Below, one piece after another: positions 1,942-7,773 of a stretch of 64,000 bases of DNA. Under the pieces are notes generated by a model. It was not told the origin of the DNA and made no database searches. It saw only the letters and a list, made by a program, of their open reading frames with translations. Position 1 is the first letter of the stretch, and each line of letters opens with the position of its first letter. This stretch comes from Henriciella barbarensis (GTDB taxonomy: Bacteria; Pseudomonadota; Alphaproteobacteria; Caulobacterales; Hyphomonadaceae), in assembly GCF_003576345.1 (NCBI RefSeq), contig NZ_QWGB01000008.1:62001-126000 (forward strand), written 5' to 3'. The translations under genes were made by a program, and so were the position numbers.

Positions 1942-2685
1942 ATGGAGTCCAGAGCCCTCGATATCCCCGGCGTCTTCCGGCTTGGTGAGACGTGCAGAAA
2001 GCCCGACCAGAGCTTTCCGCTCAACCTTGGTCGTGAGGGCGTGCATGAAATCTGCGAAGCGCGGCATGGGGACATGGCCGCGATGACAGGTTTTGCCCTC
2101 GCCGCAGCGCGCCCGCCCGCAGGCGCTATTTTCTGGATCCGCCAGTTCGGCCTTGCCCGAGAACATGGCGACCTGCTCCATGCCGGGCTTCCCAGTCTCA
2201 CCCACTGCCCGGCAGGCCTGCTTTCCGTCCAGACCCGGAAGGCCAGCGATGCCCTCTGGGCCAGTGAGGAAGCAATATCATCAGGCGCTGTCGGCCTCGT
2301 CATCGCAGAAATCGAAACGCTGGACTTTACCTCATCCCGCCGCCTGACGCTCGCCGCCAGCCGGCATGGCATCCCGCTTATCCTGCTCCTGCCCTGGCGA
2401 CGGGAGGGAACAAGCGCAGCGACCGCCCGATGGCGGATCGCCTCGCGGCCATCGGGACCTAATGCCTTTGATGCCCGCGCTCCAGGCGCCAGCCGCTGGC
2501 AGGCCGTTCTGGAGAAGTCCAGACAAGCCCCGCAAATGGCGGGGCGCGTGTTCAACATCGAGCTCGACCATGAAACGCTATCTCTCCGTGTGGTTTCCGG
2601 GCTGGCCGCTCACGCGCCTTCGCCGCGCGCGGCACCAGCCGACATCGGCCTCAGCCAGGATACGCCCCGGCGAAAAACAGGCTGA
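1942..2685 (+). CDS. imuA: ImuA, RecA/SulA-like mutagenesis factor
   Basis: A 247-residue protein in the position of imuA, first gene of the SOS mutagenesis cassette. The segment HEICEARHGDMAAMTGFALAAA resembles the RecA-like core of ImuA proteins, followed by GAIFWIRQ and SSRRLTLAASRHGIPLILL. ImuA works with ImuB and DnaE2 in damage-induced translesion synthesis. It is shorter at the N-terminus than many ImuA proteins, starting just before the core. Its last 116 bases overlap the start of imuB in another frame, as is common in this cassette. A LexA box abuts the start codon. Assignment rests mainly on the cassette context plus the core pattern. Confidence 0.85.
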   Translation: MESRALDIPGVFRLGETCRKPDQSFPLNLGREGVHEICEARHGDMAAMTGFALAAARPPAGAIFWIRQFGLAREHGDLLHAGLPSLTHCPAGLLSVQTRKASDALWASEEAISSGAVGLVIAEIETLDFTSSRRLTLAASRHGIPLILLLPWRREGTSAATARWRIASRPSGPNAFDARAPGASRWQAVLEKSRQAPQMAGRVFNIELDHETLSLRVVSGLAAHAPSPRAAPADIGLSQDTPRRKTG

Positions 2686-4294
2686 ACCGGCCCGTAAACC
2701 CTTCGTCCTCGTCGAGGATGGCGGCCACGGCTTGCGCGTCGCAGCGGCCAACGCTTCCGCACGCACACTCGGCATATCGGCAGGACTTGGCTTTACCGAC
2801 GCCCGCGCCCGCTGCCCGGACCTGTTGCACGAAGATATCGACCGGGAGGCCGACCGCGCCGCGCTGGAACGGATCGGTGACTGGATGGTGCGTCTTTCCC
2901 CTATTGTCGCTATCGACGGCGATGACGGGCTAATGATTGAGACCACGGGCTGCGACCATCTTCATGGCGGTGAAGAAGCCATGATGGAGACTGTGGCTGA
3001 CCTGCTTGAGAAGAATGCCATTCCGCACCGGCTTGGCCTTGCCAGCACACCGGGGGCCGCAAGCGCTCTTGCCCGTGATTGGCCAGGCCACATTCTTGCC
3101 GACGGCAAAGAAGCTTCAGATCTCGCTGAGCTTCCTATCAGCGCGCTGCGCCTCTCTGAAGAGGCTGAGACCCTGCTCAAGCGGTTTGGCCTTCGCCGGA
3201 TCGGCCAGCTTTATGGGATCGACCGCAAGGCGCTGGGACGGCGTTTCCAGTCACGCGCGGCAGGCGATGCAGTCCTGCTACGGCTCGATCAAGCGCTTGG
3301 TCTTCGCCGGGAACCGCTCACGCCGCTGAAAGAAGCCCCCTCGCATATCACCCGCCTGCCCTGCCCGGAGCCATTGCTGGCGACCGAAGGCGTCCAGAGC
3401 GGGCTCGAACAGCTTGCAGATGAGCTTTGTATGAAGCTGACCGGGCTTGGACAGGGCGCGCGCGCCTTTGCCTTTCACGCTTTTCGCGCCGATGGCGAGG
3501 TGAGCTCTGTGTCGGTCACGCTCGCCCGGCCCGTGCGCACCCCCAAACATATCCTGCGGCTTTTTTCGGAAAAGCTGGACCAGATCGACCCCGGCTTCGG
3601 CATTGATCTTCTGATGCTGGAGGCAAGGCGGACAGGGCCGATGGATATCAGCGCGCCCGCGCTTTCAGGTGATCTTGCCGCCAGCGATACAGACCCTGTG
3701 CTCCTTTCGGCCCTCGCAGACAGGATTACTGCCAAGCTTGGCGAAGGCACCGTCAAAGTCACTGAGGCGCATGAAAGCCATTTGCCGGAACAGGCAGAGC
3801 GCAAGGCAGGCTTTGACGGTGAGCTGCCAGCCCCTGCCATTGCTCCTCCCGATCACGGGCCAAGACCGATCCGCCTGATAGACCCGCCGGAGGAAATAAA
3901 AGTTCTCGCCGAAGTGCCCGATGGGCCGCCCTTGCGCTTTATCTGGCGCCGTGTGCCGCATGCGGTGACCCGTGCTGATGGGCCGGAACGGTTGGCACCT
4001 GAATGGTGGACATGGACGGCCCCGCCGCCGCCCTCTGCCAGCCCTGAAGGCATTGACCGCAAATGGCTGAAGCCAAAGCTCGACCCGCGCGCCGATGCAG
4101 CGCTGATTGCGAAAATCCGGGCAGAGCTGGAAGCTGCCGACCCGGGCGAACCTGTCTCCAACCTGCCGCGGGCACGGGACTATTACCGGATTGAGGATGA
4201 GGAGGGCCGCCGTTTCTGGCTGTTCAGGCAGGGCCTCTATGAAGATGGCCGGGGCGGTGCGCCGCTCTGGTTCATGCATGGGCTGTTCGCATGA
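2570..4294 (+). CDS. imuB: ImuB, catalytically inactive Y-family polymerase homologue
   Basis: A 574-residue Y-family DNA polymerase relative. It begins MKRYLSVWFPGWPLTRLRRA, the characteristic ImuB N-terminus, in which the metal-binding aspartate of active Y-family enzymes is absent. The palm continues with LVEDGGHGLRVAAANASARTLG and SPIVAIDGDDGLMIETTGC, then the helix-hairpin-helix region (RFGLRRIGQLYGIDRKALGRRF). ImuB is known to act as an adaptor that links the beta clamp and DnaE2 rather than as a polymerase. Start ATG 2570 is chosen over the longer open frame from 2366 because the conserved N-terminus begins there. It overlaps imuA upstream and dnaE2 downstream (ATGA), so the three are one operon under LexA. 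Confidence 0.93.
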   Translation: MKRYLSVWFPGWPLTRLRRARHQPTSASARIRPGEKQAEPARKPFVLVEDGGHGLRVAAANASARTLGISAGLGFTDARARCPDLLHEDIDREADRAALERIGDWMVRLSPIVAIDGDDGLMIETTGCDHLHGGEEAMMETVADLLEKNAIPHRLGLASTPGAASALARDWPGHILADGKEASDLAELPISALRLSEEAETLLKRFGLRRIGQLYGIDRKALGRRFQSRAAGDAVLLRLDQALGLRREPLTPLKEAPSHITRLPCPEPLLATEGVQSGLEQLADELCMKLTGLGQGARAFAFHAFRADGEVSSVSVTLARPVRTPKHILRLFSEKLDQIDPGFGIDLLMLEARRTGPMDISAPALSGDLAASDTDPVLLSALADRITAKLGEGTVKVTEAHESHLPEQAERKAGFDGELPAPAIAPPDHGPRPIRLIDPPEEIKVLAEVPDGPPLRFIWRRVPHAVTRADGPERLAPEWWTWTAPPPPSASPEGIDRKWLKPKLDPRADAALIAKIRAELEAADPGEPVSNLPRARDYYRIEDEEGRRFWLFRQGLYEDGRGGAPLWFMHGLFA

Positions 4295-7200
4295 ACGGAT
4301 ATGCAGAACTGGCCGTCACCACCAATTTCTCCTTCCTGCAAGGCGCCAGCCACCCGGAAGAGCTGGTTGCGCAGGCAAAAGGGCTTGGGCTTGCCGCGAT
4401 CGGCGTTGCTGACCGCAACACCCTTGCCGGTGTCGTGCGGGCCCATCTTGCAGCGAAAGACTATGAGATGCGCCTTCTGGTTGGCGCGCGCCTTATCACA
4501 ACAGACGGGTTCGACCTTATTGCCTATCCGCAGGACCGGGACGCTTATGGGCGGCTTTCGCGGCTTCTCTCCGAAGGCAAGCTGCGGGCAGAGAAAGGCG
4601 AGTGCCATATCACGCTGGAAGATGTGCTCGCCCATTCCGAAGGCCAGATTTTTATCGCCATGCCACCAGCCCGCCCTGATGAGGGTTACAGGCTGCGGCT
4701 GGAATGGCTGCACGCCCAGTGGGGGGACCGGCTCTATCTTGGCGCCCGCTATGGATTTCAGGGCCAGAACCGCGAGCGGGTCGCCCGCCTCGCAGACCTC
4801 GGATTCAAGGCTGGCGGGGTGCCGATTGTGGCGGTGAATGATGTTCTCTATCACGCTGCTGAGCGCCGCCCGCTACAGGATGTGGTGACCTGTATTCGCG
4901 GGCATTGCACCGTGGATGAGGCAGGCTTCCAGCTGGAGGCCAATGCTGAGCGTCACTTAAAGCCTGCAGAAGAAATGGCACGCCTTTTCAAGGGCTTTGA
5001 GCCAGCTCTTCGCAGGACAGTTGAGATTTCAGAACGCTGTACATTCTCGCTTGACGAGCTTGCCTATGAGTATCCGGACGAGCCTGTGCCGCCGGGAAAG
5101 ACGCCGCAAGAACATATCGAAACACTCGCCTGGGACGGTGCAGCCTGGCGGTATCCTGACGGTGTTCCAGAGGGTGTAAAAAAAGCTATCCGAAAAGAGC
5201 TCAAGCTGATCGGCGAGCTCAATTACGCGCCCTACTTCCTGACGGTCCATGACATCGTCGCCTGGGCAAAAGACAAGGGCATCCTCTGTCAGGGTCGCGG
5301 CTCTGCGGCCAACTCAGCAGTCTGTTACTGTCTTGGCATCACCAGCGTCGATCCGTCTGTGACGAGCCTGCTTTTCGAACGCTTCCTGACCAAGGAAAGA
5401 CGTGAGCCGCCAGACATTGATGTCGACTTCGAGCATGAGCGGCGCGAGGAAGTCATCCAGTATGTTTATCGCCGCTATGGCCGCCACAAGGCGGCGCTGA
5501 CCGCCACGGTGATCTCTTACCGGCCGCGCTCAGCCGTGCGTGAAGTCTGCAAAGCGCTGGGCCTGTCGCAGGATATTGCCTCTGCGCTGGCGGGCACGGT
5601 CTGGGGCAGTTTCGGGTCGGACGTAAAGGAAAAGCAGATCCGGCAGGCAGGTCTCGACCCCACCAATCCTGTGATCCGCCGTGCGGTCCAGCTGACCCGG
5701 CAGCTGATCGGCTTTCCGCGCCACCTTTCACAGCATGTCGGCGGGTTTGTCCTGACGCGCGGCCCGCTGGTCGAGACCGTGCCTATCGGCAATGCGGCGA
5801 TGGCGGAGCGCACCTTCATCGAATGGGACAAGGACGACATCAGCGCCCTGAACATCATGAAAGTAGATGTGCTGGCGCTTGGCATGCTGACCTGTATCCG
5901 CAAGGCGTTCGACCTGCTGCGCCTTCACAAGGGGCTGGATTATTCACTGGCCACCGTCCCGCAGGAGGATAAGGCGACTTATGACATGCTGTGCAAGGGC
6001 GACAGTCTGGGCGTCTTCCAGGTCGAAAGCCGGGCGCAGATGAACATGCTGCCGCGTCTTCGCCCGCGCGTTTTTTATGATCTTGTCATCGAGGTCGCCA
6101 TCGTCCGGCCTGGCCCCATACAGGGCGATATGGTCCACCCGTATCTGCGCCGCCGCAACGGACAGGAGACGGTGACCTATCCGTCCCCCTCCCCCAGGCA
6201 TGGCCCTGCCAATGAGCTGGAGACCATCCTGAAGCGAACCAATGGCGTCCCGCTTTTCCAGGAGCAGGCGATGCAGATCGCCATGGATGCGGCCAAGTTC
6301 TCTGCTGATGAAGCCAATGGCCTCCGCCGGGCCATGGCGACCTTCAGGAAGGTCGGGACGATCCAGAACTATGAAGAGCTTATGGTCGAGCGCATGGTCG
6401 CGCGCGGTTATGAACGGACATTCGCCCAACGCTGTTTCGATCAGGTGAAGGGGTTTGGCGAGTATGGCTTTCCTGAAAGCCATGCAGCCTCGTTCGCGCT
6501 TCTGGTCTATGTCTCTTCCTGGCTGAAATGCCATCACCCGGACGTCTTCTGCGCCGCGCTCCTCAACAGCCAGCCCATGGGCTTCTACGCCCCGGCCCAG
6601 ATCGTCCGCTGCGCGCGCGAGCATGGCGTTGAGGTGCGCGAAGCGGATGTGAACCTGTCGGATTGGGATAATATTTTGGAGCCTTGTGGGTTTTCTGCTC
6701 AGGGCTGTTCGCCGCCTGACGGCGGCTGCGCCTGCGCGGTCGCTTGTGAGGGGAATGATTTGAAAGGTGCGGGCGAAGCCTCTTGCCCTCCCCCGTTCAC
6801 GGGGGAGGTGAGCGGCGAAGCCGCTCGGAGGGGGGAGCCAGAAAACGCAGCGCCTACCGCTTCCCCCCTTCGACCCGCTCCGCGTGCCACTTCCCCCGCT
6901 TGCGGGGGAAGAAAGAACACGCGCCTCGCCGTACGCTTGGGCTTCAGGCAGATCGACGGGCTTCGCGAGGATGAGATGGAAGCCATGATGGAGGTGCGCG
7001 GCGGCGGCTTCGAGCAACCTGAAGATATCCGCCGCCGCACAGGTATCACCCGCCGCGCCATGGAGCTGCTGGCCGCGGCGGATGCCTTCCGGTCGATGGG
7101 ACTGGACAGACGCGAAGCGCTCTGGGCCTCACGCGGGGAGGCCGCCGGCAAGACACTGCCCCTGTTCGCCGCCGCCGACACGGCCGAACAGGGCAGAGAA

Positions 7201-7773
7201 GCGGCAACACCCCTGCCCCGGATGCCATCTTCCGAACACGTATTGCAGGATTACCAGACCACGCGCCTGTCGCTGAAGGCCCATCCTATGTCTTTCTTGC
7301 GCGATCATTATGCGTCCATGCGCACGCTGAGCACGCGTGAAGCCTCTGACCTGCCAAACGGCGCGCGGGTCCAGACCGCCGGTATCGTGCTGGTACGCCA
7401 GAGGCCCGGCTCTGCCAGCGGGGTCTGTTTCATCACGATTGAGGATGAGACCGGCATTGCCAACCTCGTCGTCTGGCCGAACGTATTCGAGCGGTTCCGG
7501 GCGGTTGTCATGGGCGCACGGATCATCCTGGTCAAAGGGCGTATCCAGCGGGCCGAAGGGGTAACCCATCTTGTGGCAGAACAGCTTATCGACCGTACCG
7601 AAGATCTGAGGCTGCTGTCCGAAAATACCCTTCGCGACCCGATGAAGGGCGTGCTCTCCAATGCCGACGAAGTGGTCAAACCCATCCCTGAAAGGCGTGG
7701 GCCGGGACGAAGAACGGTGCACACCCATCCACGTAACGTGCGCATTATTCCCAATAGCCGCGATTTCCATTGA
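4291..7773 (+). CDS. dnaE2: Error-prone DNA polymerase III alpha subunit DnaE2, with in-frame repeat insertion
   Basis: A 1160-residue C-family polymerase. The N-terminal PHP domain starts ELAVTTNFSFLQGASHPEEL; the palm has GRGSAANSAVCYCLG and the catalytic PDIDVDFEHERR near residue 375; the C-terminal OB fold reads FITIEDETGIANLVVWP. DnaE2 is the translesion polymerase of the ImuA-ImuB-DnaE2 system. Most DnaE2 proteins are about 1040-1100 residues; the excess here is explained by roughly 80 residues at 797-876, low-complexity Pro/Ala/Gly/Cys-rich, encoded by a palindromic repeat element between NLSDWDNILE and RLAVRLGFRQIDGL, two segments that are adjacent in ordinary homologues. The insert keeps the frame open. 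The ATGA overlap with imuB supports the start. Confidence 0.95.
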   Translation: MNGYAELAVTTNFSFLQGASHPEELVAQAKGLGLAAIGVADRNTLAGVVRAHLAAKDYEMRLLVGARLITTDGFDLIAYPQDRDAYGRLSRLLSEGKLRAEKGECHITLEDVLAHSEGQIFIAMPPARPDEGYRLRLEWLHAQWGDRLYLGARYGFQGQNRERVARLADLGFKAGGVPIVAVNDVLYHAAERRPLQDVVTCIRGHCTVDEAGFQLEANAERHLKPAEEMARLFKGFEPALRRTVEISERCTFSLDELAYEYPDEPVPPGKTPQEHIETLAWDGAAWRYPDGVPEGVKKAIRKELKLIGELNYAPYFLTVHDIVAWAKDKGILCQGRGSAANSAVCYCLGITSVDPSVTSLLFERFLTKERREPPDIDVDFEHERREEVIQYVYRRYGRHKAALTATVISYRPRSAVREVCKALGLSQDIASALAGTVWGSFGSDVKEKQIRQAGLDPTNPVIRRAVQLTRQLIGFPRHLSQHVGGFVLTRGPLVETVPIGNAAMAERTFIEWDKDDISALNIMKVDVLALGMLTCIRKAFDLLRLHKGLDYSLATVPQEDKATYDMLCKGDSLGVFQVESRAQMNMLPRLRPRVFYDLVIEVAIVRPGPIQGDMVHPYLRRRNGQETVTYPSPSPRHGPANELETILKRTNGVPLFQEQAMQIAMDAAKFSADEANGLRRAMATFRKVGTIQNYEELMVERMVARGYERTFAQRCFDQVKGFGEYGFPESHAASFALLVYVSSWLKCHHPDVFCAALLNSQPMGFYAPAQIVRCAREHGVEVREADVNLSDWDNILEPCGFSAQGCSPPDGGCACAVACEGNDLKGAGEASCPPPFTGEVSGEAARRGEPENAAPTASPLRPAPRATSPACGGRKNTRLAVRLGFRQIDGLREDEMEAMMEVRGGGFEQPEDIRRRTGITRRAMELLAAADAFRSMGLDRREALWASRGEAAGKTLPLFAAADTAEQGREAATPLPRMPSSEHVLQDYQTTRLSLKAHPMSFLRDHYASMRTLSTREASDLPNGARVQTAGIVLVRQRPGSASGVCFITIEDETGIANLVVWPNVFERFRAVVMGARIILVKGRIQRAEGVTHLVAEQLIDRTEDLRLLSENTLRDPMKGVLSNADEVVKPIPERRGPGRRTVHTHPRNVRIIPNSRDFH
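6680..6920 (+). repeat. Palindromic repeat element inserted in frame within dnaE2
   Basis: Within about 240 bases there are three perfect hairpins: CCTCCCCCG/CGGGGGAGG with a TTCA loop (6787-6808), AGCGGC/GCCGCT with a GAA loop (6811-6825), and CTTCCCCCGC/GCGGGGGAAG with a TT loop (6890-6911). The layout of C5/G5 hairpins separated by GC-rich arms looks like the REP/BIME-type intergenic repeats of alphaproteobacteria. Here it lies inside coding sequence and is translated without a stop. Boundaries are estimated from where DnaE2 similarity breaks and resumes. Confidence 0.75.

Follow-up and report, generated by a model that had tools for sequence, protein, structure and literature searches.

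The dnaE2 locus and its insert

We analysed a stretch of 64,000 nucleotides from Henriciella barbarensis (the window; genome G000), in which a gene for the error-prone DNA polymerase DnaE2 carries a translated insert. Other genomes are denoted by G numbers, contigs by C numbers, and loci by L numbers. The features concerned are as follows.

1942..2685, plus strand: ImuA-like gene (ImuA NF033429, E 9.6e-9; score 35 bits, cut-off 150)
2567..4294, plus strand: ImuB-like Y-family polymerase gene, immediately 5' of dnaE2 (putative start)
4291..7773, plus strand: dnaE2, encoding the 1160-aa error-prone DNA polymerase that carries the insert (ORF, Pfam, NCBIfam)
6685..6924, plus strand: whole translated insert, residues 799-878 (comparison with insert-free orthologues; AlphaFold2)
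6685..6786, plus strand: other insert segment, with hairpin GCCGCC/GGCGGC (74-84% identity to dnaE2 of G005, G016, G010, and G006)
6787..6835, plus strand: REP unit 1, with hairpin 1 (6787-6808), hairpin 2 (6811-6825), and tail CGGAGGGGGG (6826-6835)
6836..6862, no strand: spacer separating the REP units (sequence reading)
6863..6911, minus strand: REP unit 2, inverted, with tail (6863-6872), imperfect hairpin 2 (6873-6887), and hairpin 1 (6890-6911)

The dnaE2 frame (4291-7773, plus strand) was read as open over all 1160 codons, insert included. NCBIfam NF004225 (error-prone DNA polymerase) matches the product with 1460 bits, and its Pfam domains are PHP, DNA_pol3_alpha, DNA_pol3_finger, HHH_6, and tRNA_anti-codon. 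Named DnaE2 proteins from other organisms are about 50-68% identical to it, and the DnaE2 tree mixes orders. The gene at 2567..4294 has weak matches to DNA polymerase IV families, all below the curated cut-off; its position next to dnaE2 suggests that it is ImuB-like. Together with the ImuA-like gene, these genes presumably form an imuA-imuB-dnaE2 cassette.

The insert begins after Pro798 and ends before Leu879 (6685-6924, about 240 bases). From NLSDWD to RLGFR, the gene spans 297 nt in G000 and 72 nt in the insert-free G004, a net gain of 225 nt or 75 codons. The initial annotation had described an in-frame interruption of dnaE2 with three perfect hairpins, and we confirmed both the open 1160-codon frame and the hairpins, which lie at 6787-6808 (arms CCTCCCCCG/CGGGGGAGG), 6811-6825 (AGCGGC/GCCGCT), and 6890-6911 (CTTCCCCCG/CGGGGGAAG). 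Each unit of about 49 bp consists of a hairpin C[C/T]TCCCCCGnnnnCGGGGGA[G/A]G, a TG, a second hairpin, and the tail CG[G/A]AGGGGG; the second hairpin of unit 2 (6873-6887) is imperfect. The same annotation had taken all of the roughly 240 bases for a palindromic element. This holds for 6787-6911 and fails for 6685-6786, a different segment that matches 8 of the 29 genomes of the genus at E<=0.01. Its matches in dnaE2 are its own and those of G005, G016, G010, and G006; one 74% match in G002 is located elsewhere. The insert is a composite of a REP pair (6787-6911) and a separate segment (6685-6786).

A stretch of 128 nt (6788-6915) folded at -80.9 kcal/mol, compared to -55.7 +/- 3.9 kcal/mol for 200 dinucleotide shuffles, none of which was as stable (z -6.5). 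A repeat-finding program reported no inverted pair in 6600-7000 and one unrelated pair across the window; because this search missed the inverted pair, the hairpin calls rest on sequence reading and folding. Rfam at the gathering threshold gave no match anywhere in the 64-kb window.

We estimated dN/dS by a simple counting method. The core (1080 codons) gave 0.053, 0.039, 0.066, and 0.056 against G005, G001, G003, and G004, respectively, and the insert, whose alignment is uncertain, gave 0.70, 0.51, and 0.49 in three comparable pairs. Purifying selection is thus strong on the DnaE2 core and much weaker on the insert. AlphaFold2 (35 sequences) modelled DnaE2 with a mean pLDDT of 80; residues 802-875 fell below 50 and were flanked by beta strands at 795-798 and 879-882. 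The insert is predicted to be a disordered loop at a surface beta-hairpin turn of a confidently predicted core. Polymerase III alpha chain 2hpi aligns up to its residue 879, equivalent to residue 793 of the query, and Pfam HHH_6 begins at DnaE2 residue 880. Therefore, the insert site lies just N-terminal to the helix-hairpin-helix region.

A dispersed REP family and a variable site in DnaE2

By BLAST (E <= 0.001), the REP pair matched 14 of the 29 genus genomes, the other 15 giving no match at that threshold; the most pieces matched in a single genome was 38, a number that includes both strands and sub-pieces. G000 has two further clear loci, C7:23610-23708 and C10:74748-74843. Its closest other copies, C7:23655-23708 (89%) and C10:74793-74843 (88%), both match REP unit 2.

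From the fetched loci, we gathered 65 distinct REP units by pattern. These loci cover most of the BLAST list, and those left out include G010 C143, G017 C24:126378, and G025 C22:5-53. Because that pattern predetermines much of hairpin 1, the information comes from the loop pair, the tail, and hairpin 2. Hairpin 1 has a six-base loop in 62 units, 31 of which close it with C-G and 28 with T-A. In 60 of the 65 units, a C-G or T-A pair in the lower stem is accompanied by the tail GGAGGGGG or GAAGGGGG. Among 34 distinct second hairpins, 168 of 170 cells are paired, compared to an average of 137 (sd 4.4) after shuffling, and 0 of 2,000 shuffles reached 168; kinship among the units inflates these covariation counts. 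The second hairpin of the REP unit covaries, and its changes keep the stems. The family thus has the general character of REPs, a short palindrome in many dispersed copies with compensatory stem changes. In a class-wide search, the exact C-type unit, a pattern that misses variants, was found in 3 of 385 genomes, including G000.

The initial annotation had proposed a dispersed REP-like element, to be checked by searching for copies elsewhere in the genome and by aligning the DnaE2 of relatives. Both checks bore it out: copies were present in 14 of 29 genus genomes and at the two other G000 loci, and the genus alignment (27 rows, 25 spanning the site) contained no conserved linker. Eight of the 25 rows have 33-109 extra residues (G000, G005, G016, G003, G001, G010, G006, and G011), and 17 have 0-1. 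Four of the eight carriers, G000, G005, G001, and G003, match the dnaE2 REP family at the site; the sister of G001, G016, has no match. In a three-protein tree in which some branches are weak (0.66-0.70), the eight carriers and G004 form one clade, which suggests that the first insertion probably predates the clade and that G004 lost its insert. No clean target-site duplication was readable on comparing REP alleles, because the flanks vary among them. As side observations, the dnaE2 of G011 is split across two frames, and G002 has two dnaE2 genes (L039 and L044), the product of the L039 copy having 93 residues rich in Asp and His at another position.

As a control, we examined the replicative paralogue DnaE1 in the 17 genus genomes with both flanking segments listed. 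It has no comparable insert there, because each DnaE1 stretch is shorter than the corresponding G000 DnaE2 stretch. The distance between the segments is 54-102 nt in 16 genomes and 363 nt, covering 186 query residues, in G022.

The search for a mobilising enzyme identified RAYTs in 3 of the 29 genus genomes by Pfam and in 11 by similarity. None was found in G000, G001, G016, or G026, a search that a divergent RAYT could escape, and across 12 RAYT loci no match to the dnaE2 element was better than E 0.2. Three of five RAYT flanks examined (G002, G007, and G017; L248-L250) contain a GTAG-type repeat (GTAGGGCGGG-type), which belongs to a GTAG-like family other than that of the dnaE2 element. With no linked RAYT or matching flank, a RAYT as mobiliser of the dnaE2 REP family was rejected as unsupported.

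The same turn in other DnaE2 proteins

We measured the turn in 79 of 80 DnaE2 loci from other, mostly alphaproteobacterial contigs, the best 80 of 593. It is 1-31 aa long in 65 genes, and at least 44 residues are present in the region in 14. Ten of these were retained, and 10/79 is a biased rate, the query itself being insert-bearing. The other four, Bradyrhizobium L046, L047, L048, and L087, were dropped as turn inserts, their extra, repeat-like sequence lying about 25 residues downstream; these downstream stretches are structured in L047 and L087 (z -11.1 and -10.2) and unstructured in L046 and L048 (z -1.5 and -0.1). The retained loci belong to Jiella, Caulobacter, Novosphingobium, Sphingomonas, Erythrobacter, Roseomonas, a Caulobacteraceae, a Pirellulales, and two alphaproteobacterial contigs. 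Several are metagenome bins.

All ten retained inserts were more stably folded than their shuffled versions (z from -3.8 to -11.9), and 49 of 50 upstream control stretches were at z -2.2 to +1.7. The exception, at z -4.4, is a stretch of L050 with as much structure as the L050 insert itself. Searches of their own genomes gave 92 matching pieces for the Jiella insert and 83 for that of Roseomonas (the insert itself, both strands, and sub-pieces counted), and both are dispersed palindromes different from the G000 dnaE2 element. Therefore, at least three lineages have distinct dispersed palindromes at the same turn. Folding suggests that the other eight inserts are repeats as well.

In-frame copies in other genes

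Comparison of the element with the fetched loci by BLAST gave 91 places, 89 of them distinct (two are duplicated through the overlap of L186 and L191). Thirteen of the 89 lie in frame within three recognised genes; the count covers recognised genes, and the remaining 76 places fall outside it. The element is in frame in dnaE2 of G000, G005, G003, and G001. In a ligase-associated DNA damage response DEXH helicase (TIGR04121, Lhr-like), it occupies a first site in G001, G016, G004, and G007, a second in G007, and a third in G026 and G024. In glyS, which encodes the glycyl-tRNA synthetase beta subunit, it is found in G001 and G026. Thus, as with RPEs, in-frame insertion affects several unrelated genes (dnaE2, the Lhr-like helicase, and glyS). 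We discarded the idea that the PPPxxGEV frame is always preferred, since one REP unit in G001 glyS is read in a different frame. Other long ORFs over REP copies, such as those at L224, L208, L202, L214, and L216, look antisense or spurious and were left uncounted. In G017 (L247), a CysG-like gene has a putative C-terminal extension at a REP copy. Two allele types, WLDVR... and WLPKR..., exist at the first helicase site and are scattered on the tree (L286-L298, L197), a distribution that may reflect interspecies recombination.

The glyS gene of G000 (L320 2760-2847, C10) contains an in-frame CGTC-like REP dimer, CGTCATCCCGGA...TCCGGGATGACG, at the place that holds the dnaE2-type element in other species. 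Peptides resembling this insert are present there in G004, G007, G013, and G017, and other species have different palindromes. In the 28 species measured (L316-L344), GlyRS beta has a hypervariable segment of 19-135 aa, bounded by N-x-VRL and FFADRL. When seven closely related species are compared, identity is 82-98% in the 60-aa flanks, and similarity within the segment is at the shuffled level in 21 of 21 pairs. The segment is common to G005 and G023 (76%), and short forms of 19-20 aa in some further species are mutually similar. This pattern in glyS, a gene for an essential enzyme, resembles the replacement of cassettes.

Origin of the insert

We consider it quite probable that the insert, a REP dimer plus another segment, results from selfish insertion tolerated at a permissive DnaE2 loop. 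It would comprise a REPIN-like inverted pair of units from a lineage-specific REP family, beside the other segment. Selfish REP dimers would insert widely, and within genes the stop-free, in-frame cases at permissive loops would persist. The units are read without stops in the frame PPPFTGEV...SPLR...TSP..GGG, and the model suggests that the peptide forms a protruding, disordered loop rich in Pro, Gly, and Arg. Such a loop would leave the polymerase working, so that its insertion would be only weakly selected against. Among related species, sequences at the site have been gained, replaced, and lost. We infer that the insert arrived by transposition and is nearly neutral; the insert-bearing DnaE2 is presumably made and active. 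That two of the three gene targets are repair enzymes (DnaE2 and the DEXH helicase) counts against this reading, as chance does not obviously predict it; so do the failure to tie a RAYT to the REP family among the loci compared and the failure to read a clean target-site duplication. The beta-hairpin turn between the fingers and the helix-hairpin-helix might instead be a class-wide hot spot for in-frame insertion of unrelated REP families, the hits in mutagenic and repair enzymes reflecting targeting or mutation-rate selection beyond tolerance; we regard this as doubtful.

It is unlikely that the insert is adaptive, with a loop that tunes the contacts of DnaE2 with the clamp, ImuB, or DNA, shifts SOS mutagenesis up or down, and is selected in repair genes. 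Different palindromes do recur at one DnaE2 turn in other genera, and repair genes are prominent both here and in the available portions of PMC3733652, whose authors speculate on mutator effects. However, dN/dS is 0.5-0.7 in the insert, which is replaced among close species, disordered by prediction, and apparently lost from G004, and unlike sequences at one site argue against a specific contact. We think it quite unlikely that the nucleic acid itself has the role, a strong hairpin in mRNA or DNA lowering dnaE2 translation or stability with the peptide as a by-product. The 128-nt fold (-80.9 kcal/mol, z -6.5) and the covariation of the structure throughout the REP family would suit such a role, but several close relatives have no element at the DnaE2 site, and copies outside dnaE2 retain the structure too, which therefore is no pointer to a dnaE2-specific role. 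An ordinary, old low-complexity linker with no tie to mobile repeats is very improbable: the site tolerates many lengths (1-31 aa in 65 of 79 measured genes), but copies elsewhere in G000 and the genus contradict it, the same element is in other genes, and close relatives have no such linker in DnaE2. An assembly or frameshift artefact, suggested by nothing more than the oddity of the insert, is scarcely credible, given that the independent genome G005 has an insert at the same place, with a repeat part 81% identical and an open 1160-codon frame.

The DnaE2 site provides a natural series (with, without, and with different inserts) for testing loop effects on an error-prone polymerase. The insert is also a warning that Pro/Gly-rich segments in such proteins may derive from repeats.

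Comparison with known systems

A 2011 study of REPINs and RAYTs in PLoS Genetics reportedly described pairs of inverted REP units that fold into one longer hairpin. The dnaE2 insert shares the inverted pair and differs in that no cognate RAYT flanked by the dnaE2-type REP was found among the RAYT loci compared. The 2013 BMC Genomics study of intragenic GTAG and CGTC REPs is said to be the work of Di Nocera et al. In its available portions, that paper (PMC3733652) reports intragenic REPs in several bacteria, many in DNA synthesis and repair genes, and names DnaE2, other repair genes, and tRNA synthetases as REP-bearing; therefore, the phenomenon is known. Its authors proposed altered activity and mutator effects, with no test in the portions covered. 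Like the dnaE2 element, GTAG and CGTC REPs are described there as short palindromes, often inverted dimers, translated in frame. The dnaE2 element has neither design, having two hairpins per unit and the CG[G/A]AGGGGG tail. GTAG REPs have this tetranucleotide at the foot of the stem and are associated with RAYT genes; GTAG occurs in 0 of the 65 listed units, and no RAYT association was found in the 12 RAYT loci compared. According to the same portions, CGTC REPs have a CGTC tag and an 8-9 bp stem beginning AT, whereas dnaE2-type units begin C[C/T]TCCCCC; unlike these, the separate G000 glyS insert does show a CGTC-like CGTCATCCCGGA...TCCGGGATGACG. Same-site insertion is given there for recB and otherwise differing sites, whereas here the DnaE2 turn recurs across genera. 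A literature search on in-frame palindromes and a 12-mer of the element, with subscription journals mostly outside its scope, returned no description of the dnaE2 REP family. The family and the recurrence of palindromes at one site of DnaE2 appear to be new here, and individual cases may overlap the supplementary list of PMC3733652.

The initial annotation had regarded palindromes within genes as known mainly from Rickettsia, a view not supported by what is available of PMC3733652 (several bacteria) and of PMC4224334, which reports in-frame WPE-like inserts in addA, addB, and priA of Wolbachia. RPEs and Wolbachia palindromic elements are likewise palindromes in frame within protein genes; the host group is different and the element GC-rich here, and the comparison is one of behaviour. 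In the accessible part of PMC10969869, RPEs are about 150 bp long, and nearly half are in frame in genes in R. conorii, compared to 13 of 89 places in frame in a recognised gene here. In-frame REP insertion, best known from Rickettsia, is now seen in free alphaproteobacterial-type genomes, where it affects repair genes and the gene for an essential tRNA synthetase.
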